The notes below the pieces were generated by a model. That model saw only the letters and a program-made list of their open reading frames with translations. It searched no databases and had not been told where the DNA came from. Shown one piece after another: positions 369 through 16,984 of a stretch of DNA of 64,000 nucleotides. The translations under genes were made by a program, and so were the position numbers. The DNA comes from Hyphomicrobiales bacterium (GTDB taxonomy: Bacteria > Pseudomonadota > Alphaproteobacteria > Rhizobiales > Ancalomicrobiaceae): assembly GCA_021286855.1 (NCBI GenBank), contig JAJTBO010000001.1, forward strand, positions 62,001 through 126,000. The letters run 5' to 3'. The stretch's first letter is position 1. Each line of letters begins with the position of its first letter.

Positions 369-1508
369 GTGTCAGTTCAGTCGCCGACCGTCTCGGAGGC
401 GCGTCTTCTCTCGGTCCTCGACACCGCCGTCGACGGCATCGTCGTCATCGACGAGCGCGGCCGCATCATGGTGTTCAACAAGGCCTGCGAGGAGCTCTTC
501 GGCCGCACCGCGGCGGAAGTGACCGGCCTCGGCATCGCCGTCCTGATGCCGCCGGAATTCTCCGATCATCACGACGCCTGGGTGAACCACTATCTGCGCA
601 CCGGCGAGAAGAAGATCATCGGCATCGGCCGCGAGGTGCGCGGCCGTCACGCCGACGGCACGGTGTTTCCGATCGAACTGTCGGTCGGCGAATGCCGCAC
701 CCCCGAAGGGCGTCAATTCATCGGCATCATCCGCGACCTGCGCTCCCGCAAGGCGGTCGAGCAGCGGCTCAACCAACTCCAGGCGCAGCTCGTCCAGATG
801 GCCCGCGTCAACGCCATGGACGAAATGGGCGCGGCCATCGCCCATGAGCTCAATCAGCCGTTGACCGCGGTGATGCTCTATCTCCAGGCGCTTTCGCGCA
901 AGCTGAAGCTCGGCGAGGAGGAGGGCGCGATCGACGCCTCGCTCGTCGAGATCGTCGCCAAGACGGTGCGCGAGGCCGAGCGCGCCGGCGCGATCATCCA
1001 GAAGATGCGCCACTTCGTCGAGAAGCGTGAACCCGATCGACAGGCCGTCGACGTCGGCAAGCTGGTCGACGAGGCGCTCGAGCTGACCCTGCTCGGCCAC
1101 GACGGCGCCGGCATCGAGGTGGTGCGCGACCTCGCGGACCATCTGCCGCTGCTCGACGTCGATCCGGTGCAGATCCAGCAGGTCCTGATCAACCTGATCC
1201 GCAACGGCATCGAGGCGGTGCGGGGACGCGACGATCGCTGGATCCGCATCGCGGCGCGCGTCGACGACGGTCGTCTGCTGTTCGAAGTGGAAGACAGCGG
1301 CGACGGCATCCCCAAGGAGAAGGTGCGCGATCTGTTCAAGGCCTTTGCGACGTCGAAGAAGCAGGGTCTCGGACTCGGGCTTGCGATTTCGCGTTCGATC
1401 GCTCAGAACCACGGTGGCGACCTGCTCGTCGAGCCGGGCGGGGCAGGGCGTGGCGCGACCTTCGTGCTGTCGCTGCCGCTCGAGACGGCCGATCCGCGGA
1501 CCGAATGA
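369..1508 (+). CDS. fixL: Oxygen-sensing PAS-heme histidine kinase FixL
   Basis: 379 residues, GTG start with 'GGGGA' about 10 bases ahead. A single PAS domain (about 12-125) carries the FixL heme pocket: by alignment to remembered Bradyrhizobium FixL, the heme-ligand His200 matches His68 and the signalling Arg220 matches Arg88 in 'IIGIGR' (same spacing of 20). Arg206 of that protein is His74 here. A coiled linker leads to the dimerization helix with phospho-acceptor His159 in 'AHELNQPL', then the N box, the G1 box 'DSGDGI' and the G2 box 'GLGLGLAIS'. There is no membrane segment, so this is the soluble Bradyrhizobium-like type. fixJ follows after 55 bp. The family role is to autophosphorylate when oxygen leaves the heme and pass the phosphate to FixJ. 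Confidence 0.93.
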   Translation: MSVQSPTVSEARLLSVLDTAVDGIVVIDERGRIMVFNKACEELFGRTAAEVTGLGIAVLMPPEFSDHHDAWVNHYLRTGEKKIIGIGREVRGRHADGTVFPIELSVGECRTPEGRQFIGIIRDLRSRKAVEQRLNQLQAQLVQMARVNAMDEMGAAIAHELNQPLTAVMLYLQALSRKLKLGEEEGAIDASLVEIVAKTVREAERAGAIIQKMRHFVEKREPDRQAVDVGKLVDEALELTLLGHDGAGIEVVRDLADHLPLLDVDPVQIQQVLINLIRNGIEAVRGRDDRWIRIAARVDDGRLLFEVEDSGDGIPKEKVRDLFKAFATSKKQGLGLGLAISRSIAQNHGGDLLVEPGGAGRGATFVLSLPLETADPRTE

Positions 1509-1563
1509 GGAAGACGACGTCGCCGCCCACGCGCGGCGTCGCGGAGTGTAGCGAGGGTAAGAC

Positions 1564-2196
1564 ATGATGGGTCGCACGCAGAAGACCGAGCAGACGATCT
1601 ACGTCGTCGACGACGAGCCTGCCGTCCGCGACGCGCTCGCGGTGGTCTTCGAGATGGAAGGCTTCGCCGTCACCGGCTTCGAATCCGGCGACGCCTTCCT
1701 CGAGGCGGCCAAGTCTCACCCGCCGGCCTGCGTCTTCCTCGACGTCCACATGCCCGGCCGCTCCGGCCTGGACATCCTGAAGGCGCTCAACGCCGATCAC
1801 TATCCGGTTCCGATCTTCATCATCTCCGGTCAGGGCGACATCCCGATGGCGGTGACGGCGATCAAGTACGGCGCCTTCGACTTCATCGAGAAGCCCTTCG
1901 ACGCCGGCCAGATCGTCGACCGCGTCCGCGAGGCGCTCGCCGCCCAGGCCCGTCGCGCCGACGGCGAGACCCATCAGGGCATGCCGGCCGACTTCCCCGG
2001 TCACGATCTGCTCACGCCGCGCGAGCTCGAAGTGCTCGGCCAGATCACCGCCGGCGCCTCCAACAAGGAGGCCGGCCGCCATCTCGGCATTTCGCCCCGC
2101 ACCATCGAGGTGCATCGCGCCCGCATCATGGAGAAGCTCGGCGCCCGCAACGCCGCCGATCTCGTCCGCATCGTCCTGACCGGCGAGCACGGGTGA
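1564..2196 (+). CDS. fixJ: Two-component response regulator FixJ (receiver plus LuxR-type HTH)
   Basis: 210 residues with a purine-rich RBS ahead of ATGATG; the second ATG (1567) is an equally possible start. The receiver domain (about 11-125) has the acidic pair Asp16/Asp17, phospho-acceptor Asp60 in 'VFLDVHMPG', and Lys110 in 'FIEKPFD', all as in FixJ. The C-terminal LuxR/GerE helix-turn-helix (about 145-205) includes 'LTPRELEVL' and 'SNKEAGRHLGISPRTIEVH'. It lies directly downstream of fixL and would be phosphorylated by it. The likely target in this window is the fixK promoter, which has a FixJ-like site at 2726-2739. Confidence 0.94.
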   Translation: MMGRTQKTEQTIYVVDDEPAVRDALAVVFEMEGFAVTGFESGDAFLEAAKSHPPACVFLDVHMPGRSGLDILKALNADHYPVPIFIISGQGDIPMAVTAIKYGAFDFIEKPFDAGQIVDRVREALAAQARRADGETHQGMPADFPGHDLLTPRELEVLGQITAGASNKEAGRHLGISPRTIEVHRARIMEKLGARNAADLVRIVLTGEHG

Positions 2197-2313
2197 GGAG
2201 CGCCGGCCTCGGCCGGCGATGACGTCTTCTCGAGCGGCCTCCTCGCAACACTACGGATGCCGCGCCCGCCCGTTTCGGCCCACATTGGTCGAACCACGTG
2301 GCGAGGAAGCTCC

Positions 2314-2691
2314 ATGACGGAAGAACCGCCGGCGGCGCGCCTCGCGCCCCCGGGAACTGTCCATATCGTCGAAGACGACCCCGGCGTGTCCGACAGCCTG
2401 CGCTTTCTGCTGCAGGCGCTCGGCCACGACGTCGTGTCGCATCCCGACGCCGAGAGTTTCTTCGAATGTCCGCCGCCGGGCGAAGACGACGTGGTGATCG
2501 TCGATCTCGGCCTGCCCGGCATCGGCGGAGCGCAGGTGATCCGTTGGCTGCAGCGGTTGACGCCGCGCCCGCGCATCGTCGCCATCTCCGGCCAGGCGCA
2601 GAAGGTCATCGAAGACGAATTGCGCGGTCTGCCGCTGGTTCGGCTGCTGCGCAAGCCGCTGTCGGGCGACACGCTGGTCGCGGTGCTGTGA
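2314..2691 (+). CDS. Stand-alone receiver-domain protein between fixJ and fixK
   Basis: 125 residues from the ATG at 2314, chosen because 'GAGGAAG' sits 6 bases ahead; an in-frame ATG at 2257 has no such site. The whole protein is one CheY-like receiver: acidic pair Asp21/Asp22, phospho-acceptor Asp64 in 'VIVDLGLPG', switch Ser92 and Lys114 in 'LLRKPLSG'. There is no output domain. All phosphorylation residues are present, so it should be able to take phosphate. Its place inside the fixLJ-fixK locus suggests it tunes this cascade, for example as a phosphate sink or as a FixT-like inhibitor of FixL. That role is inferred from position only; FixT itself is not recognisably homologous here. Confidence 0.85.
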   Translation: MTEEPPAARLAPPGTVHIVEDDPGVSDSLRFLLQALGHDVVSHPDAESFFECPPPGEDDVVIVDLGLPGIGGAQVIRWLQRLTPRPRIVAISGQAQKVIEDELRGLPLVRLLRKPLSGDTLVAVL

Positions 2692-2725
2692 GCGCCGCGC
2701 TGCGTCGCCGTTTAGGCCCTTCGAC

Positions 2726-2739
2726 GTAAGTAGGGCACC
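2726..2739 (+). promoter_or_regulatory. FixJ-like binding site upstream of fixK
   Basis: The sequence GTAAGTAGGGCACC resembles the FixJ site as I recall it from rhizobial fixK promoters (GTA-N-GTA followed by a T/C-rich stretch). The first eight bases fit well; the following TTTCC part is poorly kept. It starts about 240 bp upstream of the fixK ATG, leaving room for a promoter and a leader of more than 150 nt. Confidence 0.5.
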
Positions 2740-2966
2740 GGGATTGTGAAGGCCCAGCCTTCTTTCTAGCTTTTTTACCGTCGAGGACCGCGATCCTCGC
2801 GTCCCTGCGACCCCGGAGACGGGCCGGCGTCGCACCATGAGGGCGAGGAGAGATGGCGGACGTCGAACGGATGGGGCGCCCCGCGGCGCCCCCGGATCGA
2901 GAGCCCACGGACGACCGGCACGGTTTCTGTGACGGGTGGGAGTCGATCGACGAGGAGGGACGAGAC

Positions 2967-3671
2967 ATGGCCTATTCCGATCGCGCCTTCGGCAACGCCG
3001 GCGCACTGCCTCAGACCACCGGCGCCGACGCCGCGTGGTCGACCTTCGCCCGCTCGCAGCGGGTCAAGACCCAGCGCCTCGCCGAGCACGACGCCGTCTT
3101 CTACGAAGGCGATCCGGCCGATCGCGTCTACGAACTGATCGAAGGCGCGGTGATGCTGTTCAAGCTGCTGCCCGACGGCCGCCGTCAGGTGGTCGAGGTG
3201 GTCGCGCCCAACGCCCTGTTCGGCATCGTCGCCGGCGCGCTCTACGACTGCAACGCCGAGACCCTGACGCCGAGCGTGGTGCGCATTCTCGACCGCCGCG
3301 AACTCGAGGCCTCGAACGAATACCAGGGTCACGTCGCCGAATGCCTGCGCGAGCAGATCGAGCGCCTGCACGACCACGCCGTCCTGCTCGGCCGCAAGTC
3401 GGCTTTCGAGCGAGTGGCGAGCTTCCTGATGCGCTTCGTGCCGAAGCGCGGCGTGCCCGGCTGCCTCGGCCCGCAGAACGGCAAGGACGAGCAGGTCATC
3501 GAACTGACCATGACGCGTCAGGAGATCGCCGACTATCTCGGCCTCACCATCGAGACGGTGAGCCGCGTCATCTCCGATCTGAAACGCCGCGGCCTGCTGT
3601 CGATCGAGCGTCAGGACCGCATCCGCCTGACCGACGTCTGCGGCATCTGCCGGCTGACCGGCGCGCACTGA
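2967..3671 (+). CDS. fixK: FixK-type CRP/FNR family transcription activator
   Basis: 234 residues from the ATG at 2967, preceded by a strong 'AGGAGGG'; a longer in-frame start at 2853 lacks this. There is an N-terminal cyclic-nucleotide-fold domain (about 30-140), a dimer helix, and a C-terminal HTH. The recognition helix contains 'ETVSR', the E--SR signature of FNR/FixK proteins that bind TTGA-N6-TCAA. No cysteines occur before the HTH region that could form the FNR iron-sulfur cluster, so this is the FixK class, which is controlled through its transcription by FixJ. A cysteine pair (CGIC) lies near the C-terminus. Candidate targets in the window are hemN and hemA, which both have matching boxes. 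Confidence 0.92.
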   Translation: MAYSDRAFGNAGALPQTTGADAAWSTFARSQRVKTQRLAEHDAVFYEGDPADRVYELIEGAVMLFKLLPDGRRQVVEVVAPNALFGIVAGALYDCNAETLTPSVVRILDRRELEASNEYQGHVAECLREQIERLHDHAVLLGRKSAFERVASFLMRFVPKRGVPGCLGPQNGKDEQVIELTMTRQEIADYLGLTIETVSRVISDLKRRGLLSIERQDRIRLTDVCGICRLTGAH

Positions 3672-3693
3672 GCGAACCGACGCGCTTCGAACG

Positions 3694-3725
3694 AGACCCG
3701 CGAGGCAGGCGCCGCGCGGGTCTTT
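3694..3725 (+). terminator. Probable rho-independent terminator after fixK
   Basis: Inverted repeat AGACCCGCG ... CGCGGGTCT (9 bp stem, 12-base loop) followed by a short T run, 23 bp after the fixK stop. Confidence 0.55.
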
Positions 3726-3778
3726 GCACATCGGCGCGGCGCGGCTAGGTTCGACCGGTCCCACGATCGGAGCGTCCC

Positions 3779-4255
3779 TTGGCCGCCACCCCCGCCACCA
3801 CCTTCCTGAAGGCGAAGAAGATCGCCTTCGAACTCCTCGAATACGCCCACGACCCGCGCGCCGAAGCCTATGGCCTCGAGGCGGCGGAGAAGCTCGGCCT
3901 AGATCCGGCAAGCGTCTTCAAGACTTTGGTGGTCTGCGATGGGGGAAAGGCGCACGCCCTCGCCCTGGTGCCGGTCGCCCGCAAGCTCGGTCTGCCGCTG
4001 GTCGCCCGCGCCCTCGGCTGGAAGCGCGCCGAGATGGGCGACAAGGCCGACGCCCAACGCCTCACCGGCTACGTGCTCGGCGGCATCTCGCCCTTCGGGA
4101 CGAAACGCCCCCTGCCGGTCGCCGTCGACGAGATGTTGCTGACGCCGGAGAAGGTCCATGTCTCCGGCGGGCGCCGTGGCTTGGAGATCCGCATCGCGCC
4201 CACCGATCTCGTCGCCGTCCTCGCCGCTGTCGCCGCGCCGATCGCCGTCGACTGA
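3779..4255 (+). CDS. ybaK: Cys-tRNA(Pro)/Cys-tRNA(Cys) deacylase YbaK
   Basis: 158 residues with a TTG start at 3779; no better start is present in frame. It is a single YbaK/ProRS-associated editing domain and includes the typical 'DPASVFKTLVV', 'YVLGGISPFGTK' and 'VHVSGGRRGLEIRI' motifs. The family hydrolyses cysteine wrongly attached to tRNA-Pro in the cytosol. Length is normal for the family. It sits between fixK and the oppositely oriented hemN with no clear functional link, and is probably its own unit. Confidence 0.88.
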   Translation: MAATPATTFLKAKKIAFELLEYAHDPRAEAYGLEAAEKLGLDPASVFKTLVVCDGGKAHALALVPVARKLGLPLVARALGWKRAEMGDKADAQRLTGYVLGGISPFGTKRPLPVAVDEMLLTPEKVHVSGGRRGLEIRIAPTDLVAVLAAVAAPIAVD

Positions 4256-4333: not shown

Positions 4334-5686
4334 TCACACCGCCACGGAATGCCGCGCCGCCGCCCGCGCCAGATAGACGTCGAAGGCCGCCGCGACGATC
4401 CGAACCAGCGGCCGGCCGAACTCGCCGACCGTCAGCCGGTGTCCCTCGATCGTCACCAGACCGTCTCGCGCCGGCTCCTCGAGCCGGGCGAAGGCGTCGG
4501 CGACCGCGTCGACGGTGGTCCCGTGCGCGGCGCAGACGGCGTCGAGATCGACGGCGTAGTCGCACATGATCTTCTCGATGATCGCGGCGCGCAGCCGGTC
4601 GTCGGCGTCGAGCGCCTTGCCCTTGGCGATCGGCAGCGCGCCCTTCTCGATCGCCCTGCGCCACCGCCCGATGTCCGGATCGTTCTGGGCGAAGCCGAAG
4701 GCCGATTGTCCGATCGAGGACGCGCCGAAGCCGATCAGCGTGTCGCAGGCGTCGGTGGTGTAGCCCTGGAAGTTGCGGTGCAGGTCGCCCGACTTGGCCG
4801 CCACCGCCATGTCGTCCTCCGGACGGGCGAAGTGGTCGAGCCCGATCGCCTCGTAGCCGAATTCGGCCAGCGCCGCCCGGGCCGTGCGCTCGAGCGCGAT
4901 CCGCTCGGTCGCCCCCGGCAGCGCCGCCTCGTCGATCAGCCGCTGATGCTTCTTGAACCACGGCACGTGGGCGTAGCCGAACAACGCGATTCGCGACGGC
5001 GCAAAGTCGTGCGCCAGCTCCACGGTGCGCCGGATCGTCGCCGCGTTCTGGTGCGGCAGGCCGTACATCAGGTCGAAGTTGATCGCCGAGATGCCGGCCC
5101 CCCGCAGCGCCTCGACCGCCGCGGTCACCGTCTCGATCGGCTGGATCCGCCCGATCGCCGCCTGCACGGTCTCGTCGAAGTCCTGCACGCCGAGGCTGGC
5201 CCGGGTCACCCCGGCCTCCGCCAGCGCCGCCGCCAGCTCGGGCGTGACGGTGCGCGGATCGAGCTCCATCGCGTGTTCCGCCGTCGGCAGGATCTCGAAG
5301 GCCTCGCGCAGCGCCGTCACGACGGCTCGGAACGACGGGACCGGCAACAGGCTCGGCGTGCCGCCGCCCCAATGGATGTGGCCGACCGGCAGACGCCGCC
5401 CGATCGCCGCCCGCACGAGGCGGATCTCCGCGACCAGCCCTTCGGCGTAGTCGATCACCGGATCGTCCTTCAGCGCCGCCTTGGTGTGACAGCCGCAGTA
5501 GTGGCAGATCGCCCGGCAGTAGGGCACGTGAAGATAGAGCGAAACCGGCGCGTCGCCGGGAAGCGCCTCGAGCCAGGAGCCGTAGAGCGCGCCGTCGACG
5601 CCGTCGCCGAAGTGCGGCGCGGTCGGATAGCTGGTGTAGCGCGGCACGCTGCGCGTCGCATATTTCAGTTCGATCGTGTTCGACAT
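4334..5686 (-). CDS. hemN: Oxygen-independent coproporphyrinogen III dehydrogenase HemN
   Basis: 450 residues from the ATG at 5686; an in-frame ATG four codons earlier (5698) is possible, but homologs as I remember them begin near this point. It is a radical SAM enzyme: the cluster ligands Cys57, Cys61 and Cys64 (C-x3-C-x2-C, followed by Cys66) are in 'YCRAICHYCGCH', and the SAM-binding 'GGGTPS' follows. A HemN C-terminal domain is present. It converts coproporphyrinogen III to protoporphyrinogen IX without oxygen, supplying heme under microoxic conditions. A FixK/FNR box lies just upstream, which agrees with known FixK/FnrL control of hemN in related bacteria. Stands alone, convergent with ybaK. 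Confidence 0.94.
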   Translation of the reverse strand: MSNTIELKYATRSVPRYTSYPTAPHFGDGVDGALYGSWLEALPGDAPVSLYLHVPYCRAICHYCGCHTKAALKDDPVIDYAEGLVAEIRLVRAAIGRRLPVGHIHWGGGTPSLLPVPSFRAVVTALREAFEILPTAEHAMELDPRTVTPELAAALAEAGVTRASLGVQDFDETVQAAIGRIQPIETVTAAVEALRGAGISAINFDLMYGLPHQNAATIRRTVELAHDFAPSRIALFGYAHVPWFKKHQRLIDEAALPGATERIALERTARAALAEFGYEAIGLDHFARPEDDMAVAAKSGDLHRNFQGYTTDACDTLIGFGASSIGQSAFGFAQNDPDIGRWRRAIEKGALPIAKGKALDADDRLRAAIIEKIMCDYAVDLDAVCAAHGTTVDAVADAFARLEEPARDGLVTIEGHRLTVGEFGRPLVRIVAAAFDVYLARAAARHSVAV

Positions 5687-5721
5687 GGGCGCCACCATGG
5701 CGGTTCGGTCCTCGCGCGGCC

Positions 5722-14852: not shown

Positions 14853-16136
14853 TCAGCCGCCCGACCGCGGCACCGCCAGATGGGCCACCGGCTCGTCCTC
14901 TTCGGCGAGCGCGGCGAGGTCGATCGGGCCAGAGAGCGGCAGCTCGAGCCGGGTCCACACGTCGGTGAGCGCCGTCTTCAGCCGGTCGATCAGATCGTCG
15001 TCGTGGAACGGCGTCGGCGTGATCCGGAGCCGCTCGGTGCCGCGCGGCACGGTCGGGTAGTTGATCGGCTGAATGTAGATGCCGTGCATCTCGAGCAGCA
15101 TGTCCGACGCCTGTTTGCACAGGTCCGGATCGCCGACCAGGATCGGCACGATGTGCGTCGACGACGGCATCACCGGCAGTCCGGCCCCGCCGAGCACGTC
15201 CTTGGCGCGCTGCGCCTGCCGCTGCTGCATGTCGCGCTCGGTCGACGACCGCTTCAGATGCCGGATCGAAGCCGCCGCCGCCGCCGCGATCGCCGGGGGC
15301 AACGCCGTCGTGAAGATGAAGCCCGGCGCATAGGAACGCACCGCGTCGCAGATCGCCTTGGTCGAGGTGATGTAGCCGCCGAGCGTGCCGAACGCCTTGG
15401 CCAGCGTCCCCTCGATCACGTCGATGCGATGCATCAGGCCTTCGCGATCGGCGATGCCGCCGCCGCGCGGGCCGTACATGCCGACCGCATGGACCTCGTC
15501 GATGTAGGTCAGCGCGCCGTATTTTTCGGCGAGATCACAGATCTCCTTGATCGGCGAGACGTCGCCGTCCATCGAATAGACGCTCTCGAAGACGATCAGC
15601 TTGGCCCGGCCCGGCTCGGCCGCGGCCAGCAGTTCCTCGAGATGTTCGACGTCGTTGTGGCGGAAGAGCTTCTTCTCGCAACCCGACCGGCGGATGCCCT
15701 CGATCATCGAGGCGTGGTTGAGCTCGTCCGACAGGATCAGACAGTTCGGCATCAGCCGGGCGATGGTCGAGATCGCCGCCTCGTTGGAGACGAAGCCGGA
15801 GGTGAAGACGAGGCCGGCCTCCTTGCCGTGCAGGTCGGCGAGTTCGGCCTCGAGCTCGACCAGCGGATGGTTGGTGCCGGAGATGTTGCGGGTGCCGCCG
15901 GCGCCGGCGCCCATGCCGAGCGCGGTGTCGACCATCGTGCCGAGCACGCTCTGGTGCTGGCCCATGCCGAGATAGTCGTTCGAGCACCAGATCACGACTT
16001 CACGGGCCTGCTCGTCCTTGCGCCAGATCGCGTGCGGAAAGCGGCCGACGATGCGCTCGAGGTCGGCGAAAACCCTGTAGCGCTTCTCGGCCTTGAGCTG
16101 GTCGATCGCGCCCTCGAAAATCGACTGATAATCCAT
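14853..16136 (-). CDS. hemA: 5-aminolevulinate synthase (C4 pathway)
   Basis: 427 residues. PLP-dependent alpha-oxoamine synthase that condenses glycine with succinyl-CoA to give 5-aminolevulinate, the first heme precursor in Alphaproteobacteria. The PLP lysine is Lys247 in '[14 protein letters not shown]'; 'DEVHAVG' supplies the cofactor-binding Asp and His, and '[16 protein letters not shown]' is the glycine-binding region of ALAS. There is an additional C-terminal tail of about 25 residues. Its start has 'GAGGAC' ahead. A FixK/FNR box lies 219 bp upstream, consistent with raising heme supply together with the adjacent cbb3 genes. Confidence 0.96.
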
Positions 16137-16483
16137 ACGTCCGTCCTCGAGCTCTTCTGGTTCGAAAGACCCGTCCGTTCGCCGGCCGTCCGCGTTCCGC
16201 CCTCGGGCGTTTCGCGCGGCGACCCCTCTGCGGCGAACCGGCGGCGCTTCCGTCCGCGGTTTCCCTCTCAGAGATCCTCGCGGAAGCGGGCGACCGCACG
16301 CCGCCTCCGATCTCCTCGGATCCCTTCATTAGACTTACAGGATTTCGAAGCACTTTGACCATGATCAAGGCCTCGACTTTTGCCCATACGCGGATCCACG
16401 GACCGTGGTCCGTCGTCGCAGTCGGTTCGGAAACCGCTCGTTCACCTTTCTGAGCGAGTCTCGGTGCGGCTAGGGAGAGGCCG
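16137..16483. other. Divergent intergenic region hemA / receiver gene
   Basis: 347 bp holding the promoters of hemA (leftward) and the receiver gene at 16484 (rightward). It includes the FixK/FNR box at 16355-16368 and a less GC-rich stretch around 16320-16375. No small gene is convincing. Confidence 0.6.
16355..16368. promoter_or_regulatory. FixK/FNR box upstream of hemA
   Basis: TTGACCATGATCAA fits TTGAT-N4-ATCAA with one change, the same change (T to C at position 5) as in the hemN box. It is 219 bp before hemA and 116 bp before the rightward receiver gene, so it could serve either. Confidence 0.75.
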
Positions 16484-16984
16484 GTGAATCTCGATCTTTC
16501 GTCTCTGACCTTCCTCGTCGTCGAGGACAGCGCCTATATGCGGACCATTCTGCGCACGATGCTGCAGGGCTTCGGCGCGCGCCGCATCGTCGAGGCGGAG
16601 GACGGCGCGTCCGGCCTCGAAGCGATGGACCGCGCCAATCCCGACATTCTCATCCTCGACTGGGTGATGCCGATCCTCGACGGCGCCGACATGGTGCGGA
16701 TGATCCGCAATCCGCAGAACCCCTTCGCCTATGTGCCGGTGATCATGGTCACCGCCCATACCGAACGCTCGCGCATCATGGAGGCGCGAAAGCTCGGCAT
16801 TCACGAATTGTTGTGCAAGCCGATCTCCGCCAAGGCGCTCTATCAGCGCATCGCCTCGGTGATCCTGCACCCGCGCGAATTCGTGAAGACGCCGACCTAT
16901 TTCGGGCCCGCCCCGCGCGCCATCCGCAATCGCCAGAAGATCTGGCAGACCAAGCCCGGCGCGCCTCCCGGTCAGGCCGCCTGA
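16484..16984 (+). CDS. Single-domain response regulator with a C-terminal tail (CheY-like)
   Basis: 166 residues, GTG start with 'GGGAGAGG' ahead. The receiver domain (about 7-125) has Glu14/Asp15, phospho-acceptor Asp59 in 'LILDWVMP', Thr90 and Lys112 ('LLCKPIS'). A basic tail of about 40 residues includes 'TYFGPAPRAIRNRQ', a pattern I recall from alphaproteobacterial receiver proteins of unknown output. No kinase gene is adjacent. It could be a partner of the orphan CheZ at 61253, but that is only a guess. Confidence 0.88.
   Translation: MNLDLSSLTFLVVEDSAYMRTILRTMLQGFGARRIVEAEDGASGLEAMDRANPDILILDWVMPILDGADMVRMIRNPQNPFAYVPVIMVTAHTERSRIMEARKLGIHELLCKPISAKALYQRIASVILHPREFVKTPTYFGPAPRAIRNRQKIWQTKPGAPPGQAA

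Follow-up and report, generated by a model that had tools for sequence, protein, structure and literature searches.

A conserved stand-alone receiver in the fixT position of Hyphomicrobiales fixLJ-fixK loci, a candidate phosphoacceptor for FixL

A receiver gene in the fixLJ-fixK locus

The window analyzed here, a 64-kb stretch of DNA from a Hyphomicrobiales bacterium, carries a gene for a stand-alone receiver between fixJ and fixK (Table 1). Its 125-aa product matches Pfam Response_reg (PF00072) over residues 16-124 at 54.7 bits (E 1.3e-14; curated cut-off 30.2 bits), and Pfam found no second domain in it. An alignment-based structure model (pLDDT 88.5), used in place of a poor single-sequence model (pLDDT 68.7), has the (beta-alpha)5 receiver fold with a short alpha-5 at 118-124, and its top PDB matches are receiver folds throughout. 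By sequence, the nearest solved structures include FixJ (5xso, 1d5w). The phosphorylation pocket is complete: Asp21, Asp22, Asp64 and Lys114 stand where the first-pass annotation had placed them, and Ser92 is a fifth pocket residue that it had not mentioned. The gene is under strong purifying selection (dN/dS 0.13-0.17 against five relatives). A spurious ORF was ruled out by this ratio and by a strong match, one per genome, in 15/15 genomes of the window's family.

The names FixL, FixJ and FixK are given provisionally, on the best NCBIfam match, the domains, the synteny and, for FixL, the heme-PAS signature (HHDAWVNHY...IIGIGR), the scores lying far under the curated cut-offs (315 bits against 850 for FixL, 204 against 255 for FixJ, 141 against 300 for FixK). 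Beyond fixK lie ybaK, then hemN on the opposite strand, and then ORFs that by eye resemble a cbb3 oxidase set. Domains and neighbour annotation thus bear out the order fixL-fixJ-receiver-fixK that had been read from the sequence at first pass. The match of the window FixL to the rhizobial FixL model begins at model position 121 of 485, the N-terminal part being missing, so that the protein seems to be a soluble oxygen sensor with a single PAS. In the FixLs of these loci, position 206 (B. japonicum numbering) most often holds Asn or His in place of Arg.

Table 1. Features of the window discussed in the text
Feature	Position	Strand	Basis or remark
FixL, PAS-histidine kinase, presumed cognate kinase	369..1508	+	Pfam PAS, HisKA, HATPase_c
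FixJ, receiver and LuxR-type HTH	1564..2196	+	Pfam Response_reg and GerE
TACGGA element upstream of receiver start	2252..2257	+	TACG[AG]A kept in family
Stand-alone receiver gene	2314..2691	+	ORF ATG to TGA, 125 aa, family alignment
CGTAAGTAGG element upstream of fixK, FixJ-site-like	2725..2734	+	TA[AC]GTA kept in family
FixK, Crp/Fnr-family regulator	2967..3671	+	Pfam cNMP_binding and HTH_Crp_2
hemN	4334-5698	-
One-mismatch FixK box TTGACCCGGATCAA	5722-5735		just upstream of hemN
ORF resembling 5-aminolevulinate synthase (hemA)	14853-16136	-
Second one-mismatch FixK box	16355-16368		upstream of the hemA-like ORF
Receiver-like protein, 166 aa (LTFLVVEDSAYMRTILRTMLQGFG)	16484-16984		beside the hemA-like gene

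Distribution and descent

The family profile matched once per genome in 75 of 397 sampled Hyphomicrobiales genomes, representing 11 families. Seventy-four of these 75 loci were fetched; fixJ lies directly upstream of the receiver in 74/74 and fixK comes next in 70/74. A fixL is missing from some of the fetched loci, and these exceptions sit at contig ends; none of the fetched Hyphomicrobiales loci had a profile match without FixJ nearby. A scan of named genomes gave 80 loci, with fixJ directly upstream in 77 and fixK downstream in 76, and includes Siculibacillus, Blastochloris, Alsobacter, Ancylobacter, Stappia, Pannonibacter, Rhodoplanes, Roseibium and Salinarimonas. In the gene-order comparison across Hyphomicrobiales that had been proposed as a check, the receiver is therefore kept beside fixLJ, and the objection that it might not be conserved there falls away.

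FixJ-type proteins, part of which are not adjacent to a fixL, were found in 141/397 Hyphomicrobiales genomes, as against 75 with the receiver. Because about half of the FixJ-bearing genomes have no receiver, FixLJ works without it. When the receiver-negative, FixJ-positive loci were searched with a FixT profile, FixJ-type receivers only were returned, and no convincing small FixT-like ORF. In the f35/g41 genomes the FixJ-like match lies away from FixL, and a search with FixL led to a fixLJ locus in three of four.

The order fixL-fixJ-receiver-fixK was also found in three presumptive Bradyrhizobium genomes (G048, G386, G351), which fall within the family of Ancylobacter and Blastochloris. Their receivers have diverged, scoring 62-72 bits to the family profile, and have a full-length alpha-5 and Leu, not Arg, preceding Lys. 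Outside Hyphomicrobiales, single receivers follow fixJ in Azospirillum, Phenylobacterium and Sphingomonas plasmids and in further genomes. In a quick tree built on a short alignment of 116 columns, the fixJ-adjacent receivers group in a single clade (SH-aLRT 96), separate both from FixJ and from 29 further receivers encoded in the window genome. This supports, but does not prove, a single origin.

Two features of the presumptive Bradyrhizobium genomes were noted in passing. G048 has two complete fixL-fixJ-receiver-fixK loci (L343 and L342), and the fixL match of the second contains one in-frame TGA. L178-L182 and L201-L203 hold another FixJ-like regulator, which shares about 60% identity with the window FixJ and has no fixL beside it; it adjoins a protein of ~1200 aa that has a receiver match.

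Conserved residues and upstream elements

The pocket residues D21, D22, D64, S/T92 and K114 are invariant in 126/126 distinct Hyphomicrobiales receivers, so that the phosphate chemistry is under selection. The output face is altered. Three residues before the pocket Lys, at what we take to be the site of the aromatic switch (CheY Tyr106), all 123 partner FixJs have Phe, whereas 121/126 receivers have L, V, I or M. Immediately before the Lys, FixJ has Glu and 125/126 receivers have Arg. The receiver chain terminates at a median of 11.5 residues past Lys114 across the family. FixJ is the closest family match of the window receiver (best NCBIfam match, 55 bits), which differs from it by having no HTH, by the replaced Phe switch and Glu, and by belonging to a separate clade. 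Reasoning from the switch residue draws on general knowledge of receivers. From residues and model together we infer traits that would suit a protein taking phosphate without dimerising or switching as FixJ does.

Two short elements are kept upstream of the receiver and of fixK. Within the window's family, TACG[AG]A stands before the receiver in 14/15 loci (0.6 expected); in other families it does so in 4/60 (2.0 expected). The window copy is possibly part of the receiver's own promoter. TA[AC]GTA precedes fixK in every one of the 15 family loci (0.7 expected) and in 25/56 others (1.9 expected). The CGTAAGTAGG element that contains it resembles the published FixJ sites TAAGTAATTTCCCTTA (PMC4999443) and GTACGTAG (PMC13327599), and FixJ may bind at this putative site. 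Neither motif is enriched before fixL in the window's family, and a search of 1400-3800 for sigma-70 promoters and terminators returned none.

No FixK box with up to one mismatch was found before the window receiver. Among the 74 fetched loci, six have a perfect or one-mismatch box ahead of the receiver, where 0.1 would be expected. These six, from two families, have the box directly before the receiver (L090, L094, L096, L099, L100, L104), and the other 68 loci have none. Should FixK act at these boxes, the six loci would each form a ready FixK feedback loop.

The fixT slot and published relatives

S. meliloti (CP050559.1) is annotated with the gene order fixL-fixJ-fixT-fixK. Since fixT there lies exactly between fixJ and fixK, the window receiver occupies the FixT position. 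A small protein fills the same slot in Sinorhizobium numidicum, S. garamanticum and Rhizobium sp. SSA_523. Porphyrin levels are raised in a Caulobacter fixT mutant. Like the window protein, FixT consists of one receiver-like domain and is encoded alongside fixL, fixJ and fixK. It differs in the pocket: S. meliloti FixT has AAD for EDD after strand 1 and an Asp replacing Ser/Thr, whereas the acidic pair and the Ser/Thr are kept in 126/126 members of the window family. S. meliloti FixT scores just 7 bits against that family's profile, has no Pfam receiver match, and is by sequence a decayed receiver. The FixTs of S. meliloti and C. crescentus are described as missing the acidic residues and as unphosphorylated (PMC9430884).

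Membership of the window protein in FixT was rejected by profile, with 23.1 bits to NCBIfam NF051882 against a cut-off of 150; this model is narrow and among 240 genomes and 14 controls rings only in the Caulobacter control. A Caulobacter-type Fe-S FixT was likewise rejected: the 4-Cys motif is absent, with one Cys in the window protein and at most two in 125/126 relatives. Judged by sequence and pocket, the window protein is not a FixT. At first pass it had been compared with FixT and proposed as a functional replacement, such as a phosphate sink. The comparison holds insofar as FixT is itself receiver-like and shares the slot, but known FixT blocks FixL autophosphorylation and is no phosphoryl sink (PMC7078487). 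For that reason, to call the protein a functional replacement of FixT and to call it a phosphate sink are distinct proposals.

The view that the gene in this place has no described function was only partly upheld. In Bradyrhizobium, bll2758 sits between fixLJ and fixK2 (PMC4070659); its protein is strongly induced under microoxia (log2 4.8) and is absent from the list of direct FixK2 targets (PMC6515984). In Rhodopseudomonas palustris, RPA4249 is termed a FixT homologue and drawn in a FixLJ-FixK model (PMC13327599), and it is FixK-dependent (PMC2908626). The gene is thus not undescribed, but no tested biochemical function appeared in the literature searched. Both products resemble the window receiver as response regulators in the same place, a presumed orthology judged by gene place and genus; the presumptive Bradyrhizobium receivers stand where bll2758 is reported to lie and fall in the clade of the window receiver. 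Single-domain regulators of FixLJ systems as a class, the FixT slot, and two occupants by place are already known. Nothing relevant linking FixL to a phosphate sink was found in the literature searched. In the part of the literature covered, we also found no statement that the slot usually holds an intact receiver and that the studied FixTs are decayed, and we make no claim of priority.

Discussion

We propose that the receiver is a phosphoacceptor dedicated to FixL which, in the FixT position, acts as a negative modulator, either as a phosphate sink or as an aid to phosphatase activity; we give this proposal an even chance. The proposal builds on the conserved place of the gene, the invariant pocket, the altered output face and the separate clade. 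FixL~P would most likely phosphorylate both FixJ and Asp64 of the receiver. As the receiver has no output domain, lacks the aromatic switch and carries a shortened alpha-5, it would act as a drain on the phosphate of FixL, or it may instead assist FixL as a phosphatase on FixJ~P. Either way, FixJ~P and fixK expression would be limited. The receiver would hold the position of FixT in S. meliloti, but rely on a phosphate chemistry no longer present in FixT. A negative role gains support from the occupant of the same slot in S. meliloti, fixT, encoding a proven FixL antagonist. We further infer that FixJ or FixK regulates the receiver gene: the FixK dependence of RPA4249 and the induction of Bll2758 both fit feedback and, together with the FixK boxes at the six loci, are as feedback requires. 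Two observations count against the proposal, namely that the window receiver has no FixK box before it and that FixLJ works in genomes without a receiver. Osp of Rhodobacter sphaeroides is like the proposed role in being a single-domain receiver-like regulator that exerts negative feedback on its own kinase (CckA), but differs from the window protein by its degenerate pocket, its lack of phosphorylation and its different kinase (PMC9430884).

The slot alone predicts inhibition and not a sink, because both characterised FixTs act without phosphorylation. The receiver might therefore behave as FixT does, binding the transmitter domain of FixL and blocking autophosphorylation, with a pocket that serves only for Mg2+ binding, folding or regulatory input. 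The shared slot and the naming of RPA4249 as a FixT homologue speak for this, as do FixT and Osp as examples of receiver-like direct kinase inhibitors (PMC7078487, PMC9430884), and a quick tree with long branches joins FixT to receivers of this kind, not to FixJ. Yet the characterised FixT and Osp are without the acidic pair, which is the reason given for their non-phosphorylation (PMC9430884), while the window family keeps the pair and the S/T without exception; S. meliloti FixT has neither and barely registers against the family profile. We regard direct inhibition of this type as unlikely.

An invariant pocket would also suit a protein that is phosphorylated by FixL and then binds some different partner, be it an enzyme, a phosphotransfer protein or FixK, forming a second output branch for oxygen in the manner of MrrA, DivK or CheY. 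Single-domain regulators of alphaproteobacteria often signal by protein contact, with MrrA as a hub (PMC5964349). Here, however, the surface usually used for output (alpha4-beta5-alpha5) is shortened and lacks the aromatic switch, and we regard an output protein of this kind as unlikely, to about the same degree as direct inhibition. Least probable by far is a receiver that has no special tie to FixL and serves another kinase from the same operon. That FixLJ does not require the receiver agrees with such an arrangement, but its position is shared by 11 families and recurs in other orders, and purifying selection on the gene is strong.

FixT is a model for the inhibition of histidine kinases by single-domain receivers, and the two FixTs that have been studied are pseudo-receivers. 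The widespread presence in this slot of an intact receiver, with conserved pocket and weakened output face, makes it testable whether phosphate draining damps FixLJ in most lineages, and whether FixT originated by decay of such a receiver. If the proposed phosphoacceptor role is true, it would assign a function to bll2758 and RPA4249, which belong to two model organisms. A broader and unlikely extension is that the slot after fixJ ancestrally held a phosphorylation-competent, FixL-dedicated sink across the alphaproteobacteria, and that the known FixTs are its degenerate descendants, in which draining was swapped for direct inhibition.

Other FixK boxes and a second receiver-like gene

Proteins similar to the 166-aa receiver-like protein of the window (Table 1) are encoded after fixJ at L187 and L194, two loci that lack the receiver. 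The window also holds two one-mismatch FixK boxes, more than the 0.33 expected in 64 kb. One lies before the hemA-like ORF, and the other, before hemN, would fit control of heme synthesis by FixK.
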